A DNA stretch of 64,000 bases. It comes from Syncephalis fuscata. Taxonomy: Eukaryota; Zoopagomycota; Zoopagomycetes; Zoopagales; Piptocephalidaceae. Positions 6,773 through 53,214 of this stretch are shown piece by piece; the stretch's first letter is position 1; each line of letters opens with the position of its first letter. The translations under genes and the position numbers were made by a program. The notes beneath the pieces are model-generated. The model was given only the letters and a program-made list of their open reading frames with translations. It ran no database searches and was not told the origin of the DNA. Location: the NCBI GenBank assembly GCA_025786725.1, contig JAHLTZ010000007.1:620001-684000 (forward strand), in the 5' to 3' direction.

Positions 6773-8692
6773 ATGGAATGTATTATTTGCTATGAACCAT
6801 TTCCGGGAGAAAGTCAAGGTCTTTTGTCACCAGTAGCTGCTATGCCTTGTAAGTATTGGCAATTCATTAGGATACATATTAATAATTAAAACACGGTCAA
6901 GGTGGCCATATTTTCATAGTAGCTGGCAAGTACAAGATACATAGTTGCTATTGTACTGTTTTACTAATATTCTACATAGTGCTATACGTTGTTTAAATGT
7001 TTCACGTAAATGTCCAACCTGTCGCAGGCAACCAATTCGTATTGATAATTTAATCTATCTTTATGGGGATTGGGAGAGTATTAAAAATAACCAAAATGTA
7101 AGTATAGCTATTAAATGCTTTAACTGGATTTGTAATAAAGTACATAAGAAGCAAGAGGCAATGAAGCGGCGTATAGATGAGTTGTTGAACAGTGCAGCGA
7201 CGGAAAAAGAAGCGCACAAAAACGAAATAGAAGCAATGCGTGCCGAATTGAATAATCAAAAGGAATTTATTGTGGACATGAATAGTATTTTGGATTATTC
7301 ACGTCAGGGAAATATAGCTTTGAAAGCTCGTTTAAATGAGACTAGCATAAAGCTAAAGCAGAAAACCGAAGAGGCACAAGAATACCATAATGTTGCGGCG
7401 TAAGTCAAATTCTGTTACCATTTGTTATTGATTAATTGTGATGTACAGTGTAAAGAAACTACTGAAAAAACCGCTTGACTCTGAAGTTCAAGACAGTTTA
7501 AAACGGTATGCCGAGTCGGATCAATCTACGCAACACTTAGTAGTAATGACATTGCTTGATGAAATGAGTGAAATGCGCAGGTGATACAACTAATAATCGT
7601 TATATATGCTACTTTTATTAATTAATCAAAGCTTTAATAGTGAACTAGCAATGGCTAAATATGATTTGGAAAATGAAAGGCAGCTTAGTAATGAAATGGG
7701 AAAGAAAATGGATGTTGCTACTACACAACTATGTCAAGAGCAAGCAAAGGTAAGCAAGTAGCTATAGTTAATGTTGTAATTACTGTTTAAATATAATATC
7801 TAATGCAATTATAGATCCATTCATTAAATACAATAAAAGATGGATTACAATTAAAATTGGAACAGACTAATGCAGATTTTTCTGTAAGTTAGCCATTAAC
7901 TTATCTAACTAAAATTGATAAACAAAGCATAGAAGAAGTTAAAGGCTATGGAGCGTAGTATGTATAAGTGGTTGGCCAATGCTGCAATACAAAAACAAGC
8001 GCACAAAAAAGAATTAGAAATAACACGTGCTGAGTTGTATAAGCAAACAAAGAAGATTGAGCATATGAATCTTGATTTGAATGATAAATGTCAAGAGAAT
8101 GTGGCATTAAAAGCTCGTTTGAACGAAACTAGCGTAGAGCTAAACCAGAAAGCTGATGAGATACAAAAATATCATAATATTGCTGCGTAAGTTAGAACCT
8201 CATCACCATTTGTTACTGATTAACTGTGATGTATAGTATACCAAAAATACTACAAGAATCATTTGATTCTGAAGCTCAAGCCAATTTAGAAGAGTATACA
8301 AAGTCGAATCAATCTGCGCAAGATTTAGTATCAATAACATTGTTTAATGAATTAAATGAACTGCGCAGGTGATACAACCAACAACTATTATAGTCATTAC
8401 TTTTATTAACTAATAATTACTTTGATAGACGACTAGCTATGACTAAGGATCAAGTTGGAAAGGAAAAATTCTATCGTAATGCAGCAGAAATACGACTACG
8501 CGTTGCTAATACACAGCTATTCAGTGAACAAACAAGGGTAAGCAAGCAGTTATAATTAATAAGGCAGTTATTGTTTAAAAATAGCAGCTAATGTAGTTGT
8601 AGGTCCGTTTATTAAATGCAACACAAGAAGCATTAAAGCTGAAATTGGAGCAAACTACAAAAGAGTTGGAGTTGGCACATAAAGAAGTATAG
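6773..8692 (+). CDS. RING-H2 / coiled-coil protein, copy 2 (TRAIP-like), with duplicated coiled-coil cassette
   Basis: Paralogue of the gene at 3390. Exons: 6773-6848, 6902-6925, 6980-7097, 7149-7399, 7449-7580, 7641-7749, 7815-7883, 7933-8186, 8237-8368, 8429-8537, 8603-8692. The first 300 bp, including two introns (one GC-AG, 6926-6979), match copy 1 almost exactly. Exon 2 has four T where copy 1 has five (about 6911-6914), so the RING would lose frame after GHI. Exons 4-7 (coiled coil) are repeated as exons 8-11 at lower identity, making the coiled coil about twice as long as in copy 1. The frame ends at TAG 8690-8692; the downstream homologue of the copy 1 tail is full of stops. Likely a decaying or mis-assembled E3 ligase gene. 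Confidence 0.68.
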
Positions 8693-11929: not shown

Positions 11930-13031
11930 CAGTTGTTGTGCTTTGCTATACGTGAGAATAAGTGATATTGAAGCTACAACTAATGGTATAAGATTAAATG
12001 TTTTTACATTTTGTATACAAGTTTGTTAAAGAGCAATAACTTGGCCAATGCGTCATAGTATCCCCTTTACTGTTTATTCTTTAGCACCCCTTGCAGTCAA
12101 CGTGAAATGTAGAACGTAGATAGAATTATTGTAAAGTAACCACTGTTGATCCACCCCACGTTACAGGATGGTGGAAAGGGGCGGTGCTGAGGGGGGAGAC
12201 TGATGTCACCAAACAATGTATACCCTTTGAAACAGCCATTCAATGACATCACAATAACATTACGTAGAAGGAATACGTACATAGCTAATGATTTTCTCTG
12301 GTTTGAAACTAGGCTGTTATAATGCTTTATTCTATCTATATAGCTGTAGTACGTAGATAATGAATAATAATAATAAGGTTACCAATTTAATGCGACAGCA
12401 GAGACTAACAGTCCAATAGCCTAATATGCCGTGAAACAGCATAGACGGCGCTTAATCAGGAGGTGGATCGGGGCATATAAAAAACAACACTTGTCTTGTT
12501 GGCAGAGCTGTACTAGCATCAATTGTCTATGCAGGAGATTGGTGTAACTTTTCTATGCCCAAACTGTAGCGATTGATTTATTCTCATTGACTACAAAGCA
12601 TTCATGGCTGACTTTTATTCTGAATAAAACGCATCACTTGTATTGGCTAGCATGAGAAACAGCGCCGCCTTGTAGGCATGTAAATAGTAATTTATTTGCT
12701 CAATTAATAACTATTTTTATTTGCAGTGTAAGTATGAGAACTTTTAGGACCAAATTGTTGCGTAACTGGACAATTGAATCCCAGTCCATACGAATATTGT
12801 AATACCGGGGTAGAGCGTTTCACACAGTATTACCAGTTTCAACTATACTTGTTTCATTCATTCTTATTGGCACACACGTGTGTAGAGTGATCGACGTCTG
12901 GTATTTATAAGCGTCGTTTGTTGACCAATCTATTGTTTTCTTACGCACACTTCTATCTTATTTACTACCAAGTAGCCAACCATCCAACCAACTATTCTTT
13001 ACAACTAGCCGGGCTCAACCTCTATACTACT
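11930..13031. other. Long intergenic region with promoter of the secreted protein
   Basis: About 1.1 kb without a convincing gene. It separates two divergent genes. A TATA-like TATTTATAAG lies at about 12902-12911, roughly 125 bp before the ATG at 13032, followed by a pyrimidine-rich leader. A G-rich patch occurs at about 12160-12200. Confidence 0.5.
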
Positions 13032-13346
13032 ATGCATCTTATCAACTTTTTGGCTATTAGCATGCTGGCATGCACCACAAGCGCCTTTATCCTACCCAAT
13101 CCTCGTCTCATATGTCCTATGATGGTGACTAAATGTTCTTGTAAAAGCGATTCTCTCTGTGTGCGTAATACGGCTTTATTTTCGTGCAATACAGTAATGT
13201 GCGTGCCACTTAAGCCGAACAAGGGCTGCCAGGCTCCGAAATGCGCATCTAAATGCAAGTCAACACAGCAGTGTCTCTATGTTGGTGCTACATCCAAGGA
13301 CTGCGGCAAACCTACTTGTGTTGAGCCATCTGAAACTTTGATGTAA
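13032..13346 (+). CDS. Small secreted cysteine-rich protein
   Basis: 104 residues starting at MHLINFLAISMLACTTSA, a clear signal peptide with a likely cut after TTSA. The open frame extends upstream to 12918, but the region before 13032 reads as untranslated leader and the TATA box is at about 12905. The mature part is about 85 residues with 12 cysteines (pattern includes CSC, SLC, SCNTVMC, KGC, PKC, SKC, QQC, KDC, PTC), enough for six disulfides. It is basic and ends in a short acidic tail. It resembles small cysteine-rich secreted proteins or trypsin-inhibitor-like folds in general style, but I cannot match a family. A role outside the cell, in host or prey interaction or defence, is inference. 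Confidence 0.75.
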   Translation: MHLINFLAISMLACTTSAFILPNPRLICPMMVTKCSCKSDSLCVRNTALFSCNTVMCVPLKPNKGCQAPKCASKCKSTQQCLYVGATSKDCGKPTCVEPSETLM

Positions 13347-19689: not shown

Positions 19690-20680
19690 TTAAATGTTTG
19701 TTATGGATTTTGCCGTAGCAATCTGTGATAAATGAAGCATATGGTGGGTCATGGGACGATGTGCCAAGCTAGTACTGCTTCGCATACGCTGACAATGATT
19801 GACCAATATTGTCGTGACAATCATCCTAATGGCTATTAATTAAATAAATAACAATTTAGCAATGTACTCACCAGTCCACTGCAAAAAATACATCGGAATT
19901 GGCCGTATTTAAATGACTAATCACAAAAATGCAACAAATAATATTGCAAAGTATAGCCAAACACAGCGTTTGTATTCCTTCCTGTGCCAGTCGCTTCCAC
20001 GCTATCGATCCAAATGTACGATACTGCTGCAAGGCAGCCTTGCAGAAAATAGCAGAGAAGAATATGTTGATAGGACCATTGATTACAATCCAATACCATA
20101 CAAAGAAATGAGTATAATAGATCGTACAGCCTAGCTTTGCTTCTATCGTAAAGAAGCTGCTATATATCATCATAAAAGCATAAAATGGCTGTGCCAACAT
20201 CAGTGGAATGCTAAAGTATATTACCCATTTCTTCTGATAAAGCACTAAATAAGTTTTTCGAAGTATAATCAAGCTATTGCATGCCATTGCCACTCCTTGG
20301 CCAAATGCCATAGACCACACGACCATTCGACAGTTAACCAGAATCCCTAGATGCACAAGAGCTGATACTATTCCGATGCATACGCCCATAGAGGAAGGAA
20401 TTAGGCAGCACCATGAAAATATGTTGCAAGGCTGTAATATTGCCATCTTACCGGCCACAATCGAGTTACGTCCAAATAAATATAGCATGACTACCGTCAA
20501 TACTACTTCAAGATGAGCGCCCGTAAAACGGATGCGCTGCTCTTTAATATCGCCGGAGGCATTCATTAAGAAATCGATGGTATTTATTTCACCAAGCGGG
20601 TGGAGGGGAATACCCCATTTTGTTGCAGCATCTTTTGTCCACTCAGTATGGTTTAAATTTGTAAAATCTATGACCGGCAT
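19690..20680 (-). CDS. Seven-pass membrane protein, intact copy
   Basis: Exons 19872-20680 and 19690-19825 (intron 46 nt, GTGAGT...TAG) give 314 residues from MPVIDFTNLNHTEW. The polar N-terminus of about 50 residues is followed by about seven hydrophobic helices, including EVVLTVVMLYLFG, GVCIGIVSALVHLGILV, YFSIPLMLAQPFYAFMMIY, FFVWYWIVINGPINIFFSA and TLCLAILCNIICCIFVI. A basic loop RKTYLVLYQKKW follows helix 3. The topology fits a receptor-like 7TM protein with an outside N-terminus, but I see no motif of a named GPCR class. A clear but broken paralogue lies head-to-head at 21638. Probably a lineage-specific family; function unknown. Confidence 0.72.
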
Positions 20681-21637
20681 GGATAATTTGCGTGTAATAA
20701 ATGAAATGAAATAAAATAAATGATTGTAGTGGCACGCAGTTGAATAAAAAGAGAAGATATTGATGTAAATAACCAACCAAATCAGGGCAAATGTGGATTT
20801 GCATGCGTAGAATCAATTGCTGCCATGGTTCAATATATTTAACAGGTTTAGTGCAGCCTATTGCATAAAGCAGCCTCAGTTAATTCATATTTATTGGATA
20901 TTATGAAGAAAGAAGGAATGTGGTGAAAACGTGCCACAATATGAAACAAACATCCATATTCTGCTATTCAATATCAACTAGCTGTTTAGGCATTATCATC
21001 TAATAGATGATAGAAATGCTAGCAACATGTATTCAACTTTGAACAAATAAACCAGTAGCAATTCTAATATAAAATATGGATACTGTTGTACTTGCAATAA
21101 TACATGTGCTTAAGCGTTTGGACTCCAAGCACGTCTGAGTCTAACCGAACGGTAATACACTAATGCTTTCCTGTGTTTTTATGACAATATTAAAGAATAG
21201 TGGTAATACGTAGTATTAATACATAGGTATCTAAGCGAATATTAGCTATTTTTCCAACTAAACGATGATGCGGATCTGAGCAACGTTATTCTATATTTAT
21301 CGTGGCAATTTCTTTCACGCATCCACATCGTCCGCTACAACCTTGTATCATGCGCCTGACTTGGGCCAGTGCATACTAGTTGATTCAAGCACAGGAAATG
21401 ATATGCTTTACCTCCGACCAATTTGGAAATCGGTCTCTCCTTTAACCATTCCAGGAAGAGTATAACAGGTTTACAAAAGCATGGCACCATTGCCACCAAC
21501 TCGTTTCTATACCTTTATACCTGACTCCTGCGTAATTATTGTCCATTTTTATTATTAATAATTCTTTCTTTAGCGCTATATATGTTATAATCCGATCCTA
21601 TTTTTGTCCATACTTTATATAGTTACTTTATTCTTCA
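20681..21637. other. Shared divergent promoter region of the 7TM pair
   Basis: About 960 bp between the two start codons of the head-to-head 7TM copies. No open gene seen. It must hold the promoter of the intact copy and the old promoter of the broken one. Confidence 0.5.
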
Positions 21638-22625
21638 ATGCCGGATATTGATTACAATAACCCAGAAAACACCGAATGGATAAAAAATGTCACAAGACTA
21701 TGGGGCATTTCTCTTAATCCGCTTGGCGAAAAGAATGTACTTGATTTCTTTGTAGAGGCTAGTGGTGATATCAAGGAGCAACGCACTCGTCTAGTAAACA
21801 TTCAGATAGAGGTTTGATGATTGGTACAATGTTTTATCTTTTTGGCCGTAACATCATGATAGGCGGCAAGATGGTTTTATCAAGACCTAAAAATCTATTT
21901 TCCTAGTGCTGTCTCCTTCCCTCAATGGCAGGCATGATAGTAACTTTGGTCACTACATTTACATTGCTAGGCTCCGCTTTTAACTGCCGAACAATGATAT
22001 GGACGATTGCGTTTAGTTCATCAGTGGCTATGCTCGGCAACACTCTGATTTTGTTTCGAAAGGCTTACCTGGTACTTTACCAGGATAAATGAGTGCTCTA
22101 TGCCACTGCTTTATTCATGCTACCTCAACTAGCGTACGCCCTTATTGAGCTGCATTTTTGCTATATCACTTTGGAGCCAAAGTTTGGATGTGCCCTCTAC
22201 TATCCAAGCTTCTTTATATGGTACTGGCTTGGGATTAACGGTCCTCTCAACGTATTCTTTTCCATCATCTTTTGCTACTCCACTTGGAAGCAATACTGTG
22301 TGTTTGGATCGGATGCGTGGAAAAAACTGGCACGTGATGGATTACAAACTATTATACTGGCCGGATTATGCAACATTTTTTGCTGTATTCTGGTTCTTTG
22401 TCCTATAAGCTATACAAATCCTGACATATTCCTTGTTGTGGACTGGCAAGTAAAATCTAACTAATGTCACTGCTTAGCTAATAGATATTTAGGATTATTG
22501 TTACAGCAATATTGGTGCAACATTGTCAAAGTATGCAAGATAGCACGAAAACATCCCATCGTCCTAAGACAAGCTATGTGCTTAATATCTCTCAAATTAC
22601 TACAACAAAATCTGTAGTCCATTAA
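21638..22625 (+). pseudogene. Broken paralogue of the seven-pass membrane protein
   Basis: Starts MPDIDYNNPENTEW and follows the intact copy at 19690-20680 over its full length (GISLNPLGEKN, EASGDIKEQRTR, FVLCPISYTNPDIF region, LVQHCQSMQ near the end). It has at least three lesions: a frame loss after IQIEV (TGA near 21817), a TAG near 21905 where the intact copy has Trp, and a TGA at about 22090 where the intact copy again has Trp (KKW). The intron near 22450-22510 has a GC donor (GCAAGT) where the intact copy has GTGAGT, and the second exon then runs to TAA at 22623-22625. The frame loss could be a read error, but the two Trp-to-stop changes are substitutions, so real decay is likely. Confidence 0.78.
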
Positions 22626-35715: not shown

Positions 35716-37306
35716 ATCATGTAAATATTACGCATTCAATCCAATATTTTGTTTTATTTTAATATATAGCTATACAACTTTTATTAATGATCAATAAATA
35801 AAAACAATCTGTTTTTCTATTGTTGCAATAATGTATAATATTAGCTGCTTACTCTGATAAATAATTAAAGTAAGCCTTATAATAGTTGGCTTAGTTGGTG
35901 GTCGTGTAAATGTAAGTATATAAGAAGTTACAATGTGATTGCAAATATTTATCCGTACAAACAATCAGAATTATAAACTATAGTAACAATAATAAGTTAT
36001 TTAATTACTAAACTCATTGATTCAATTTTATTTACAACTCTCTGTTTTCTGTGCGTTATTTCGGTTTAACATTGCTGCTTCTCTAGCTGCATCAGCAACA
36101 GTTAATTTTTTAATAAACACAGTCCAGCTTAGCATAACTATAACCATTTGCTATGGTTAAACCAGTAAACCTTGAGCTGTTAATTATTTTCCATTGATTT
36201 CAGCTTTGGCTTGTTCTTCTACATTCTATCTTGCTTAACTTGTCAAAAGTGGTTTCAGAAATGTAAGCAGCACTTAGGCCTTGTATGATTACCCATTAAT
36301 AGACGATCCATAGCCATTACGTACTCGAAATTACTGTTATTTGGCTAGAATTTTCATTGTGCCTAACTAGTGTCTTCATATTGTATTGCGTGTAATTTAT
36401 CCAATGCAATCTAGTTTACAGCTGAAAAACTGATGACAAAAATGGCTTGTTGAAATACTCCATTGTTCAAAATGCCGTGATGCATTATCCTACAAACAAT
36501 ACTCATTGTATAATCAATTTTAGGCAATTTAGATCAGCCGTCATTTGAGTGATGGCAGTTGCACAACATGTAGCATGATATGCTTGGATGTGATACATTT
36601 ATAATTCAAAACAATGATTGCCCCTGTAACAATCGGCGTAGTGTTGAATGAAATGCATGCACGTACCAATCAACACACTTTATAATTTAAAAATTATAAT
36701 TGGCTTATATAGGGCAGTAAAACCTGTATAAAATACCAGTTTGATACATTAAGCTTGTTTTTGCATCATTATTGTGTGTTATTCTGTATACATACAGATA
36801 TTGAGGACCGAATCGGTAGAAATGACAGCAAAGACATCATTATTGTTTTTACAAAACCAAGCATATACTTGTTTTTACCAAATAGTTAGACCGTGTAACA
36901 AAAAAACAGGCTAATATGTTTATTTCTATCGCATATGTACTGAGTTATTAGCGTTGTTCCATTATTCATGCAAATGACTAGCATATTGGAGTAAAGACTG
37001 GGCAGGTTAAAATCAAGACTAGGGCATCCTATCACATTATGAATCTATTGGTACATGTGCACCTCAACCACTGTTTGGATTGTTTTATTGGTTCATATTA
37101 CACATCAATGGTATATATCGTATACTACAGCATACTAGCATTTCAACAAGATCATAAGTTTAAATAGCCCACAAAATATACACAACCACCAACTGCGATA
37201 TCATCATCACACTCTATTTCTTGCTATACACGCACTACCCTCCACTTTACACCAACCACACTCTACTATCTCTTTTATTTGTTTGTCTCAACAAATCAAT
37301 ATCACC
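35716..37306. other. Long AT-rich region upstream of the microexon gene
   Basis: About 1.6 kb. No gene recognised. The last 130 bp before the ATG at 37307 are C- and CT-rich (leader-like) and are preceded by a TTTAAATAG box near 37160, a plausible core promoter. Confidence 0.5.
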
Positions 37307-37957
37307 ATGAAGCTTTCCATTCCCGTCGTTTGCACCGTCGTTGTGGCGCTTATGGCCGTTACAACCATGGTGGATGCTAAACCAGCTTTAGCTCGTCGTG
37401 GTATGTTGCAATCACAATAAATATAACAGTATTTGCTTATTAATAGTATTTTTGACCAATAATTATAATAGGCTGTAAGTTATATTGTATATCAACCAAC
37501 TATGTACTAATTATATGCCATGTACTGTGTGTATTGATAACTTAATACTAACAGGCAGTAAGTGATATTGTATATTAACTGGCTATACATTAATCATATA
37601 TCATGTGCCATGCGCATCAACAACCTAATATTATAGCTGGTAAGTTGTATTGTATATTGACTGACTGCACTAATTATGTACCATGTACTGTGTGTAACAA
37701 TGACCCAATATTAATAGCCTGTGAGTGGTATTGTATATTAGCTGACTATGAACTAATTACATACTATTTATTGCGTATCAATGACTTATTATTAATAGAT
37801 TGTAAGTGGTATTGTATATTAACCAAATATGTACTAATCACATGCTATACACCATGTATATCAATAACTTAATACTAATAGGCGGTAAGTAGCATTATGC
37901 ATTAATGGTTTATAAATTAATCATATGACAATATTTTTATTTATAGATAAACAATAA
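37307..37957 (+). CDS. Secreted peptide precursor with six consecutive 3-nt microexons
   Basis: Exon 1 (37307-37400) encodes MKLSIPVVCTVVVALMAVTT then MVDAKPALARR, a signal peptide with a likely cut after VDA; the ATG sits in CACCATG. Six triplets follow, each with AG before and GTAAGT (once GTGAGT) after it: 37472-37474 gct, 37555-37557 gca, 37637-37639 ctg, 37718-37720 cct, 37799-37801 att, 37882-37884 gcg. The last exon starts at 37947 and stops at TAA 37955-37957. Splicing all of them in phase 1 adds GCTAYCDKQ after the Arg-Arg site. The mature product would be a 9-residue peptide with Cys-x3-Cys, if a Kex2-type protease cuts there. The alternative is readthrough of exon 1 to TAA 37418-37420, or skipping of the whole array. 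The splicing is inferred, not observed. Confidence 0.6.
37401..37946 (+). repeat. Tandem array of intron-like units (period 81-83 bp)
   Basis: Five consecutive units (37475-37554, 37558-37636, 37640-37717, 37721-37798, 37802-37881) are 78-80 nt and clearly related: each begins GT(A/G)AGT, then N(N)TATTGTATATT or similar, has (C/T)TAAT in the middle and ends in (A)TAATAG or similar. Exactly three bases separate each unit from the next. The first (37401-37471, 71 nt) and last (37885-37946, 62 nt) are less alike. Interiors have drifted noticeably but every donor and acceptor is kept. Confidence 0.85.
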
Positions 37958-39059
37958 TCAATGGTTTCAAGACATCAGCATTGGTAGGGCAATCAAACCA
38001 CTATTCCAATACACTTTAGGTATATAATCGGTGGAAATCAAAATTATTTGACAACTACGCCGTCCAGTCTATTTATATATCAAGTTTTGGCCAATGCTCC
38101 GGTTTATCCAGTCTTTAATCAATGGAATCATTATTTTATCAACAAGATTGTATCTAGTTGTTTCTATTCAACTGTGCAAACTTATAATAATAAACTTATG
38201 GTTCCATCTTAATTATATACAATCAAATTGCTATATCTATAATCATGTTTTATTTGCACTCAATAATAACAACTATTAATCAAATAATTAAATTAATAAC
38301 AAAATGTGTATAATTATATCGTGTAAGCTATAGGCATAGATTGGTATTAATAGTAGCATAGCTATTATTATCATATAGCCAAATAATAGTATACTGAATT
38401 AAAATAAAGACGCTTTTCTAATAAAACACGGCAAAAAGGCATAGGCTATTAGAGTTAACTGCCAAATAACATTAAACAACCAATAGTGCGCTTAATATTG
38501 TCGAAAAGGCTATCTTTATTTAGTTAATAAAAATATCATAAAATTTAATACAAATCAAGTGGTTTAAATGATCCGTCACAGCACCCTTTTAAGCTTCTTT
38601 TGCCATGTCCCACGACCTTTTAAATTAGAATATTAGAGCGAATTTTGTGGCATTTATGAATGGATGTTGCAAGTAGATTGTTCTAATTTATCAACGACAA
38701 ATGCTATGTTGACGGCTTTATTTTGCATATCTTTACTTTTGCTTGATAATTAGCTAAGTAATTTAAGTTGGTTGAAACAATAATACTTTTATGCAATTCA
38801 GACTTGTTTAATTGCTAAATCTGATATCTAAAACACTCTAAATAAGGCAATCTAATTTATTTGTTGGTTAAATTTTAATTTTAAAGAAATATTTATTGAG
38901 TATATTATTTTTGTTTGCATTATACTTTATTTGTTTATTTATTTTAATAGTTGCTTTATTAGTAGTTTGTATTTATTCAATAAATAAGTATTTAAATTAA
39001 AATTCGTTGCGTTTATTACAATTAACTTTTCTTATCAAGCATTTAAAACTTTTTTAAAA
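37958..39059. other. AT-rich intergenic region
   Basis: About 1.1 kb of very AT-rich DNA downstream of the microexon gene. No gene or repeat recognised. Confidence 0.5.
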
Positions 39060-51397: not shown

Positions 51398-53214
51398 TTA
51401 TGTAAAGAGTTCAAACTTAGTGCCATCAAAACCACCACGTAGTGCTAACTTGGCACGACATTGGCCATTTGGACAAGTGTATAGGTAGCGCGTTAATTTC
51501 CAATTATTCTTGCCTTCGTAGAAATTACCGCGCTCTTGAAGTTGATCCTCCAAATAGTTAATGGCAGCGCTAGGCAAATTGGTCATGTAAGATCCATTGT
51601 ATAAATCACTACGCTTTTCAAATCGTTTATCGCCCCAATTGCCTTTGCACATATCTTCATTTGCACTGGCACAGACGGCATCCAATAGGCATCGCCTTGC
51701 GAAAGAAGCATAGACTGAACCATATTAATTTGGTAATCGCGATAGAACTTGTCAGCCGAAATATCGTATTTTCCAGCTGTAAAATCGGCTAGCACCCCGT
51801 ATAATTGCTCAATAGTTGCAGTATTGAACATATCGATATACGCTGCATACATATCATCGGCAATGATATCCGAGTATCCAAGTGCGTACATATTCCACTC
51901 GAGTAGATCACTCGCCGTGGGTTCGGGCTGTTTACTGTAATCAGCTGCTTTTTGTTTAAGACCTTTCGTTACTATGGGTGGCAAAGGTAAAGCGCTGACA
52001 ATCGAGTTTAGAATTCTAATTGGATGGCCCATAAAGCCTTTAAGCTGATCAGCTGTAAAAATCATATTGACTAAATGATCTACCAGCGGTGTACCCGCCT
52101 TATAGTTCTTCCACGCGTTTTGAACATTAAGCTTAACGAATCTAGCAAGATCAAACACTGTGGTAAGTGGTTTTAATGCACCGGGTACAGTGGAATTAAC
52201 TCTGCTGATTTCATTAGTTATTAATTTGCCAACGTTCGATTGACGATTTAAACCGAGACGAGCAGTGATATTGGCAATCTTGAACTGATCGGCATATTGT
52301 TGAATGGTCATCGTACTTATAAACCCGTTAATGGTGTCCTGGACATCTTCCATGTACCAGTTCTGGATACCAGCATACTGTGGATCGCATGTCGCTACCA
52401 AAAGCGGCGTAAGGAGTTCTGTCTGTGCGGTAAGACAAGCGTCAATACTATACGGCATAATCTGATAGGACGTGGTATTACTGCTGCTATCTTTTGTAGA
52501 GTTCAATTTAAATAGCTGCGATGGGTCTCGAGCACACGGTACAATGGCCGGTGTAGGTGTGGGGCCATTATTGGTATTTACTGATAAAATAGCCAGACAA
52601 GTCATTGAATTGCTAAAGCGAATCATGTAAATATTGCTTTTTGGCTTGACTTCCCAATAATTGATATACTGGAATTGGGCACCGTAGCCACACGTTTCCT
52701 GGTAAGGCATGCGTACTGTCTCATCCTGATTGACCTTTGGCATTATAGCCGCACAGCGTTGGCCTCCATTTTCCTCAAACGGTGGCTGAAGGAACTTGTA
52801 CTGCTTCATGCCTCCAGGATTTGGATTATAAATATAGTCGTTGCCAATGGATGGCATTTGAGGAGCACTAGCTCCTCCATTGCTGGTAGCTGCTGTTTGA
52901 CCTGCTGTTGTAGCTGCTGTTCGACCGGCTGTTCGACCTGCTGCTTTAGTTACTGTTTGGCCTGCTGTTGTAGCTGCTGTTTGACCTGTTGTTGTAGTTG
53001 AATTATTACTTGATGAAGCGGCATTATTGGCTGAAGCTTGAGATTTGGGCGTGGTATTTGCTTGGGCATTATTAACTGGTGTTTGCCCTGCTGCTGTAGC
53101 TGCATTGCTATCCAATTGAACATTGTTGGTTTGGTCAGCTAGTGGATTTTGGACAACTGCCGCTGATGCGACGGATAAAAGTGCAAGTAGTGCACCTACT
53201 AAATGTAGCTGCAT
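51398..53214 (-). CDS. Secreted beta-trefoil (ricin-B-type) lectin-like protein
   Basis: Starts MQLHLVGALLALLSVASA, a clear signal peptide. Residues about 25-115 are Ser/Thr/Ala/Asn-rich with repeats of TTAGQTAAT, likely heavily O-glycosylated. Then comes a region with beta-trefoil character: MTCLAILSVN, AIVPCARDPSQLFKL, and DACLTAQTELLTPLLVATCD ending QNWYME; the QxW-type motif and the paired Cys suit a ricin-B-type carbohydrate-binding fold, but this is pattern reading only. A helical domain of about 250 residues follows (ADQFKIANITARLG, HPIRILNSIVSALPLPPI, YADISADKFYRDY region). At about 51682 the frame slips: one frame stops at 51583, the other continues with CASANEDMCKGNWGDKRF to TAA at 51398. 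One missing G explains it. Confidence 0.7.

Follow-up and report, generated by a model that had tools for sequence, protein, structure and literature searches.

A question raised by one locus of the fungus Syncephalis fuscata (Zoopagomycota, Zoopagales, Piptocephalidaceae) concerns the lower limit of exon size; namely, whether a row of splice-site pairs that enclose only three bases each is a repeat that happens to resemble a gene, or whether a secreted peptide is spelled there one codon at a time. The locus lies at 37307-37957 of a 64,000-nucleotide stretch (C267:620001-684000, referred to here as the window), and we followed it through the 28.95 Mb of the S. fuscata genome. The window gene is a member of a large family encoding secreted peptides. 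Judged from sequence patterns, the peptides of this family are very probably spelled almost wholly by phase-1 exons of 3 nt set between spliceosomal introns of about 78 nt, with exon 1 providing the signal peptide.

Anatomy of the window gene

The gene is flanked by conserved leader and trailer sequences and has the following parts.

37250-37306, + strand: 5′ leader, conserved in the family (within query 37250-37402; 40 scored matches, 89-100% identity)
37307-37400, + strand: exon 1, with the ATG, the signal peptide, a short pro-region to Ala-Arg-Arg and the first base of the next codon (phase 1)
37401-37471, + strand: intron 1, 71 nt, GTATGT...ATAG
37472-37474, + strand: 3-nt exon GCT
37475-37554, + strand: intron 2, 80 nt, tandem unit
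37555-37557, + strand: 3-nt exon GCA
37558-37636, + strand: intron 3, 79 nt, tandem unit
37637-37639, + strand: 3-nt exon CTG
37640-37717, + strand: intron 4, 78 nt, tandem unit
37718-37720, + strand: 3-nt exon CCT, with donor GTGAGT
37721-37798, + strand: intron 5, 78 nt, tandem unit
37799-37801, + strand: 3-nt exon ATT
37802-37881, + strand: intron 6, 80 nt, tandem unit
37882-37884, + strand: 3-nt exon GCG
37885-37946, + strand: last intron, 62 nt
37947-37957, + strand: coding part of the last exon, ATAAACAATAA, which completes Asp and adds Lys, Gln and the stop (TAA, 37955-37957)
37958-38230, + strand: 3′ UTR, conserved in the family (query 37945-38230; 40 scored matches, 90-100% identity)

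Exon 1 ends in ...CGT CGT G and is followed by a GTATGT donor. The initial annotation had placed six YAG-NNN-GTRAGT units after a signal-peptide exon, and all six are present, at 37472, 37555, 37637, 37718, 37799 and 37882; the donors are GTAAGT or GTGAGT, as it had said, the latter at one of the six. The intron length of 78-80 nt that it gave holds for introns 2 to 6, but the first intron measures 71 nt and the last 62 nt; removal of all seven shortens the gene by 528 nt. Joined in phase, the triplets do read GCTAYCDKQ after Arg-Arg and the stop falls within the last exon, so that the joined product is MKLSIPVVCTVVVALMAVTTMVDAKPALARR-GCTAYCDKQ; the unspliced frame past exon 1 stops at TAA 37418-37420, the read-through end that had been foreseen. 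Tandem Repeats Finder reports a single array at the gene (period 83, 5.2 copies). Across the rest of the 64-kb window, on both strands, the splice motif occurs three times at 3-nt spacing, which is not above the other spacings (0-4 per spacing, 0-12 nt).

Models of 29 array genes

From 156 kb in 40 stretches we obtained 36 exon-1 matches and modelled 29 genes, which were drawn from the best matches to the window array and its ends and some of whose contigs may represent second haplotypes. The matches that were dropped are a second, partial C211 match with no ATG, two with no donor (C135:38634 and C135:96100), and those on C201, C249, C262 and C280, whose 3′ end lies beyond the retrieved stretch. 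The two copies on C135 apparently have a signal-peptide frameshift in common and look like pseudogenes. Exon 1 was set by similarity to that of the window gene, and was required to be open and to end in phase 1; the 3′ end was set by similarity to the window 3′ UTR. Internal exons were picked from splice-site motifs and intron length alone, with 3, 6 or 9 nt as permitted lengths. Other modelling schemes were discarded: an acceptor profile of 22 nt excluded too much, a less stringent chain search yielded some artefacts of lengths other than 3 nt, and a limit to 3-nt exons missed the exons of 6 nt.

The models contain 776 internal exons, 748 of 3 nt and 28 of 6 nt; the longest run comprises 49 successive 3-nt exons (C135:464390-460214), and the window gene has the fewest microexons of the 29. 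Intron length has a median of 78 nt (n = 805; 5-95% range, 70-81). Donors are GTAAGT in 671 of 776 cases and acceptors TAG or CAG in 774 of 776, shares that are partly built in by the motif-based choice; exon 1 is followed by GTATGT in 29 of 29 models, and the acceptor profile of the array introns is TATTAATAG. The 6-nt exons, often exon 3 or 4, have their acceptor placed upstream, typically as ATTAG-N6-GTAAGT.

All models but one are open up to the last exon (28 of 29), the exception being C165:5528, in which an in-frame stop within a microexon ends the peptide (DPCDPFHPCTS, then stop). This openness requires passing over units of 1, 2, 4 or 7 nt, which is an assumption: if internal exons may have any length to a maximum of 39 nt, 7 of the 29 models stop early, namely C165 and six others that each have such a unit.

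Some arrays carry larger interruptions. A C135 array gene has an insertion of about 410 bp (L003:710-1110) in one of its introns of about 80 nt, one end of which looks tRNA-like by eye; the model of this gene is still open, and several further models contain introns of 469-502 nt. The arrays at L007 (C177:1873-5039) and L093 (C2:275300-276120) are broken off by an identical sequence end (..TTCTTTTTTCCTTTGAA), probably that of a mobile element inserting into arrays. L007 carries another copy of the window gene, which is truncated and whose final triplets, ATT and GCG, are identical. The array introns themselves gave no Rfam match for the stretch searched, and that stretch folds no better than its shuffles (z = +1.92; equal or greater stability in 98 of 100).

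Predicted peptides

A hydrophobic leader, judged by eye, is present in 29 of 29 models and is followed by a dibasic RR in 28, the remaining one ending in VGR. The peptides after exon 1 are 9-49 residues long and rich in cysteine (136 in the 29 models versus 73.3 ± 5.9 in shuffles). Exactly six cysteines are found in 17 of 29 models (shuffles: mean 0.8, maximum 7) and fewer than six in 11. With strict sites and 3-nt exons only, none of the 29 had six; the 17 appeared after weaker units and 6-nt exons were added, and the reading frame was not used in adding them. The usual spacing is C-x2-C-x3-C-xn-C-xn-C-xn-C, with exceptions. The array genes are thus predicted to encode secreted, mostly cysteine-rich peptides. 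Syncephalis species are parasites of other fungi, and these peptides may have a role towards the host fungus.

Sequence searches of Pfam and PDB with family peptides returned no family above cut-off. Among ten proteins scanned against Pfam, the peptide of the C96 array matched Toxin_2 (scorpion short toxin) at 22.0 bits (E = 2e-4), below the cut-off of 25.1, and the only other row was ARC6 (E = 0.084). An AlphaFold model from the alignment of intronless paralogues (see below) has low confidence (mean pLDDT 64, pTM 0.35); it places a helix at 36-47, across the CxxCxxxC part, and then a short strand.

Triplets are probably joined in order

If the triplets are codons in waiting, their order should matter at the junctions, where the last base of one triplet and the first two of the next form a codon. 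When the motifs were kept strict (26 chains, 323 triplets), the 297 junction codons include 0 stops versus 15.5 in shuffles of order within chains, and none of 5,000 shuffles reaches 0. The 29 models have 1 stop in 804 junctions versus 41.2 ± 4.8 in order shuffles, the lowest of 10,000 shuffles having 25; after similar peptides are reduced to one (23 genes), the count is 1 in 615 versus 30.7, with a lowest value of 18 in 5,000 shuffles. Read as bare frames, the models have stops at 5 of 804, 53 of 775 and 1 of 775 codons at offsets 0, 1 and 2, respectively; because offset 0 is independent of exon order, only the shuffles are decisive on the frame.

The reading of the arrays as satellite DNA or dead pseudogenes, in which intronless copies do the work and what resembles splice sites is only the conserved portion of a repeat, is hardly tenable: the units are indeed tandem repeats and intronless genes with the same leader do exist, but the exon-order shuffles rule out a satellite, and neither the six cysteines of so many models nor the scarcity of changes at the splice sites of recent copies (3 of 1,140 bases, versus 171 of 6,149 in intron interiors) fits this reading.

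A use of the arrays for alternative splicing, with combinatorial skipping of cassettes by which one gene would make a family of peptides, is also improbable. The initial annotation had proposed that any cassette could be kept or left out in frame. Skipping does leave the frame intact, since each of the 776 internal exons in the models has a length divisible by 3 (with 3, 6 and 9 nt permitted), and schistosome microexon genes are described as making variants in this way (PMC5825161). There is no sign of such use, however, in the 28 open models: joins of each exon to the next contain 0 stops in 763, whereas joins that skip contain 48 in 735 (i to i+2), 46 in 707 (i to i+3) and 33 in 679 (i to i+4), close to the rate of about 5% in order shuffles (41.2 of 804). 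The same level was seen in an earlier gene set (17 stops in 271 skip joins versus 14.1 in shuffles). Skips would moreover upset the cysteine spacing, and the genome has many complete genes rather than a single variable one. With neighbour joins poor in stops and skip joins undepleted, the pattern is that of coding exons joined one after another; ordered, full inclusion is, by this measure, what selection appears to have seen.

The anatomy suggests how such a message could be made. The ordinary spliceosome would take out the introns singly, beginning at the 5′ end, and would join each donor to the closest acceptor downstream of it. Recognition would be by intron definition, as the introns are short and uniform with a very strong donor and a near-invariant acceptor. 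Exon 1 would give the signal peptide and, in nearly all genes, the dibasic site; each 3-nt exon, separated from the next by a similar intron of about 78 nt, would split a codon after its first base; and the last exon would give the stop codon and the 3′ UTR. The upstream exon would lengthen by one codon at each step, and a 3-nt exon would therefore never have to be bridged from both sides. A Kex2-type protease may then cut at the dibasic site and free a disulfide-bonded peptide.

Probable one-codon exons across the genome

Tandem pairs of 3-nt units (YAG-N3-GTRAGT-N60..90-YAG-N3-GTRAGT) number 2,967 in the genome (1,248 + 1,719) versus 1 in the reversed control. The spacing is specific: TTAATAG-N3-GTAAGT has 1,992 matches (control, 1), spacings of 0-2 nt between the same two motifs sum to 16 (control, 19), which is background, and the 31 spacings of 4-34 nt sum to 185 (control, 98). 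The proposal that the window triplets are in-phase exons of a secreted-peptide gene is thus supported by hundreds of modelled units and thousands of motif matches. With the window array as query, 255 genome matches were obtained; those listed fall into clusters of array-like appearance, checked in part.

A strict pattern of exon 1 plus donor has 66 matches (control, 0) and is fitted by 15 of the 29 models, from which we estimate about 130 array genes. The 29 modelled genes, with their 776 microexons, contain 512 of the 2,967 strict pairs, a ratio that leads to about 170 genes and about 4,500 microexons. Both totals are extrapolated from a sample of well-matching genes, in an assembly that may hold second haplotypes.

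Database searches with the array-gene family (4 and 11 matches) returned S. fuscata records only. Two deposited S. fuscata proteins, P0004 and P0042, seem to continue from exon 1 into array intron (KLYCILTDYALI-like), and because they apparently translate intron sequence, these public gene models look wrong; the public annotation seems to miss the products of array genes. A divergent subfamily at C1:609265 (+) and C1:576384 (-) has the signal peptide MKFSIAVVCAILVAIVASTATVDARPNLIRR and diverged introns, with the 3-nt architecture kept; the chain search recovered AAPPGFTQ as part of its peptide, a segment that lacks cysteine.

Intronless paralogues

A search with the predicted precursor found an annotated S. 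fuscata protein, P0001, of 69 residues and with six cysteines in its mature part, which is coded without introns at C236:180381-180587 and C273:42395-42601. Among the listed matches of a genome search with P0001 (150 matches), 44 extend to query residue 43 or beyond, 5 of them with internal stops, and the rest stop near the exon-1 boundary; this is a rough, hand-counted split into uninterrupted and interrupted copies. In the intronless genes, a homologous leader precedes the same signal peptide, and the peptide, of the C-x2-C-x3-C...C...C type, is coded in one frame and directly followed by a 3′ UTR homologous to that of the window gene and to the last exon of the arrays (TAATCGATGGTTTCAAG and variants). 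The homology of leader, signal peptide and 3′ UTR supports both outer splice junctions of the array genes.

The peptides correspond as well. That of the C96 array, which has 31 microexons, aligns with the intronless L090 over 31 residues with no internal gap (E = 1.2e-4 and 52% identity in the genome search), and cysteine positions are common to array and intronless peptides in alignment A2. Taking the 20 array genes whose peptides have 4 or more cysteines and 25 or more residues, we compared matches to the intronless paralogues with those of shuffled versions. The real exon order scores above all 300 order shuffles in 13 of 20 genes, and the real peptide above all 300 residue shuffles in 11 of 20; some order shuffles equal the real match in 7 genes and some residue shuffles in 9. 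The cysteine fraction is 0.169 in arrays (791 codons, 28 genes) versus 0.166 in intronless genes (374 codons, 10 genes). Other residues differ in use (Lys, 0.078 versus 0.139; Ser, 0.077 versus 0.029), and base use is also somewhat different. As far as comparison of sequences goes, these results and the junction counts show triplets constrained as consecutive codons in order, and predicted peptides that resemble the cysteine-rich kind of the intronless paralogues.

Evolution of the arrays

Because intronless paralogues have the same cysteine framework, gain or loss of whole intron sets is part of the history of the family. In four independent pairs of recent paralogues, the differences counted above at splice sites and in intron interiors are accompanied by 14 in 342 triplet bases, which is not a significant excess over the intron rate of 171 in 6,149 (p = 0.18). 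A suggestion of diversifying selection from a larger set (54 of 567 triplet bases versus 390 of 10,273 intron bases) was withdrawn, as that set included three related copies and also the second half of C124/C96, which is unrelated. Introns of the same gene that are at least 95% alike have different following triplets in 36 of 48 pairs; either homogenisation or copying affects the introns independently of the exons, or the triplets change quickly after duplication.

One route to this pattern is intron gain, in which an introner-like element invaded intronless ancestors between codons and exons were not multiplied by unit duplication. The shared framework of the intronless paralogues and the differing triplets after near-identical introns, as if the intron had been copied alone, are in keeping with it, and introners can leave target duplications of 3-9 bp (PMC9860276). 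Random insertion, however, would not give a near-universal 3-nt spacing in one phase. In trees of the 5′ and 3′ flanks, which have low resolution, the intronless genes are moreover interspersed with array genes, and repeated loss through cDNA fits this at least as well. The array and intronless labels change 5 times on these trees, and well-supported branches force at least 2 changes in the 5′ tree and 1 in the 3′ tree. We regard gain as rather unlikely.

The alternative, to which we give an even chance, is that the arrays came first: units were duplicated in tandem, conversion homogenised their introns, and some of the genes were later overwritten by reverse-copied spliced mRNAs, with the loss of all introns in one step. 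It agrees with the exact 3-nt periodicity and with the homologous 5′ leader and 3′ UTR kept by the intronless copies. It is also in keeping with an excess of identical neighbouring triplets (41 versus 26.9 ± 4.9), block duplications (for example, introns 20-21/24-25 in one gene) and the mosaic C124/C96, in which a near-identical first half is followed by an unrelated second half. Intron identity decreases from 0.775 at distance 1 to 0.716 at distance 25. Against this, intron pairs drawn at random from different genes have an identity of 0.741, higher than that of distant introns in one gene, and at a distance of 2 there is no excess of identical triplets (20 versus 26.1). The flank trees leave the direction undecided, and the first origin of the peptide from duplicated triplets is not accounted for. 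Overall, an array-first history with repeated loss through cDNA is favoured over gain, and growth of a peptide residue by residue through unit duplication, as originally proposed, is plausible. In such a history, arrays would grow, shrink and mix through unit duplication and recombination among the repeats of about 80 nt.

We advance tentatively a wider reading, which is somewhat less likely than not: splicing would serve as residue-by-residue assembly in some 130-170 genes with several thousand one-codon exons, each in an exchangeable cassette of about 80 nt, and messages would be copied back in intronless form. If this is true, duplication, loss and recombination of cassettes would add, remove or swap single residues, and peptides could diversify rapidly.

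Relation to known systems

Conotoxin-like superfamilies have a conserved signal peptide and a hypervariable mature peptide with a cysteine framework, as does the S. fuscata family; we know of no one-exon-per-residue structure in conotoxin genes. The part of the open-licence PMC literature that was covered yielded no description of arrays of 3-nt exons.

Schistosome microexon genes encode secreted or exposed proteins and consist largely of numerous symmetric exons that measure only 6-36 bp (PMC5825161), and the S. fuscata arrays likewise build secreted proteins from many short symmetric exons. The size range sets the two apart, since only the 28 internal exons of 6 nt fall within it and the 748 of 3 nt lie below. 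The schistosome genes are moreover described as varying their proteins by alternative splicing, whereas skipping in S. fuscata shows no sign of selection, and the array introns, unlike those of the schistosome genes as described, are similar tandem copies. Aphid bicycle genes, fast-evolving putative effectors, have numerous small internal exons, almost all of which begin at codon position 2 and so are in phase with those of the arrays; the accessible description mentions unusually small exons and microexons, with no 3-nt arrays, and the organisms and proteins are different (PMC9168663).

A 3-bp exon of Drosophila homothorax indicates that the spliceosome can handle that size (PMC7392893), and Arabidopsis APC11 has a constitutive 1-nt exon, the smallest alternative exon known earlier being of 3 nt (PMC4674806). 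Those genes, as reported there, have one extreme microexon each, whereas in S. fuscata as many as 49 follow one another and matching units number in the thousands. Introners, introner-like elements and fungal stwintrons are similar introns multiplied within a genome (PMC9860276, PMC8469720, PMC12403724); introners are described as inserting into many genes, whereas the S. fuscata introns are arranged in tandem, with 3 nt between them, and belong to a single gene family.

By the general definition of a spliceosomal microexon gene, canonical introns with a strong donor and acceptor surround each microexon in the 29 models, and the family would on that basis be classed as an extreme case of a known kind. 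We rate the one-codon-exon architecture as categorically new, the machinery presumably being the ordinary spliceosome. A 3-nt exon, usually a rarity at the limit of the spliceosome, is the standard exon of this family. The arrays offer a natural system in which to test how far exon recognition reaches, in what order introns are removed and how faithfully serial splicing proceeds, with intronless paralogues as matched controls within the same genome. They also bear on the multiplication and loss of introns and on the diversification of secreted peptides in microorganisms.

Other features of the window

The window also encodes a PPR protein, for which a 660-residue query is 100% identical to BDF19DRAFT_494615 of S. 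fuscata. Two hydrophobic ORFs in opposite orientation, at 19868-20776 (-) and 22093-22464 (+), look related by eye; a Pfam scan of the former gave no match, nor did one of a secreted-looking 543-residue ORF at 51583-53214 (-), which has a 12-bp tandem repeat inside it at 52890-52993. The ORF at 12918-13346 (+) has a hydrophobic leader and then a cysteine-rich stretch (MHLINFLAISMLACTTSAF...), and is possibly another secreted cysteine-rich protein. Finally, an identical 12-nt sequence, CTGCTATGCCTT, lies between TAG and GTAAGT at both 3454 and 6837 (+), 3.4 kb apart; the copy at 6837 adjoins an ORF that looks RING-like by eye, perhaps reflecting a duplicated gene with a 12-nt exon.
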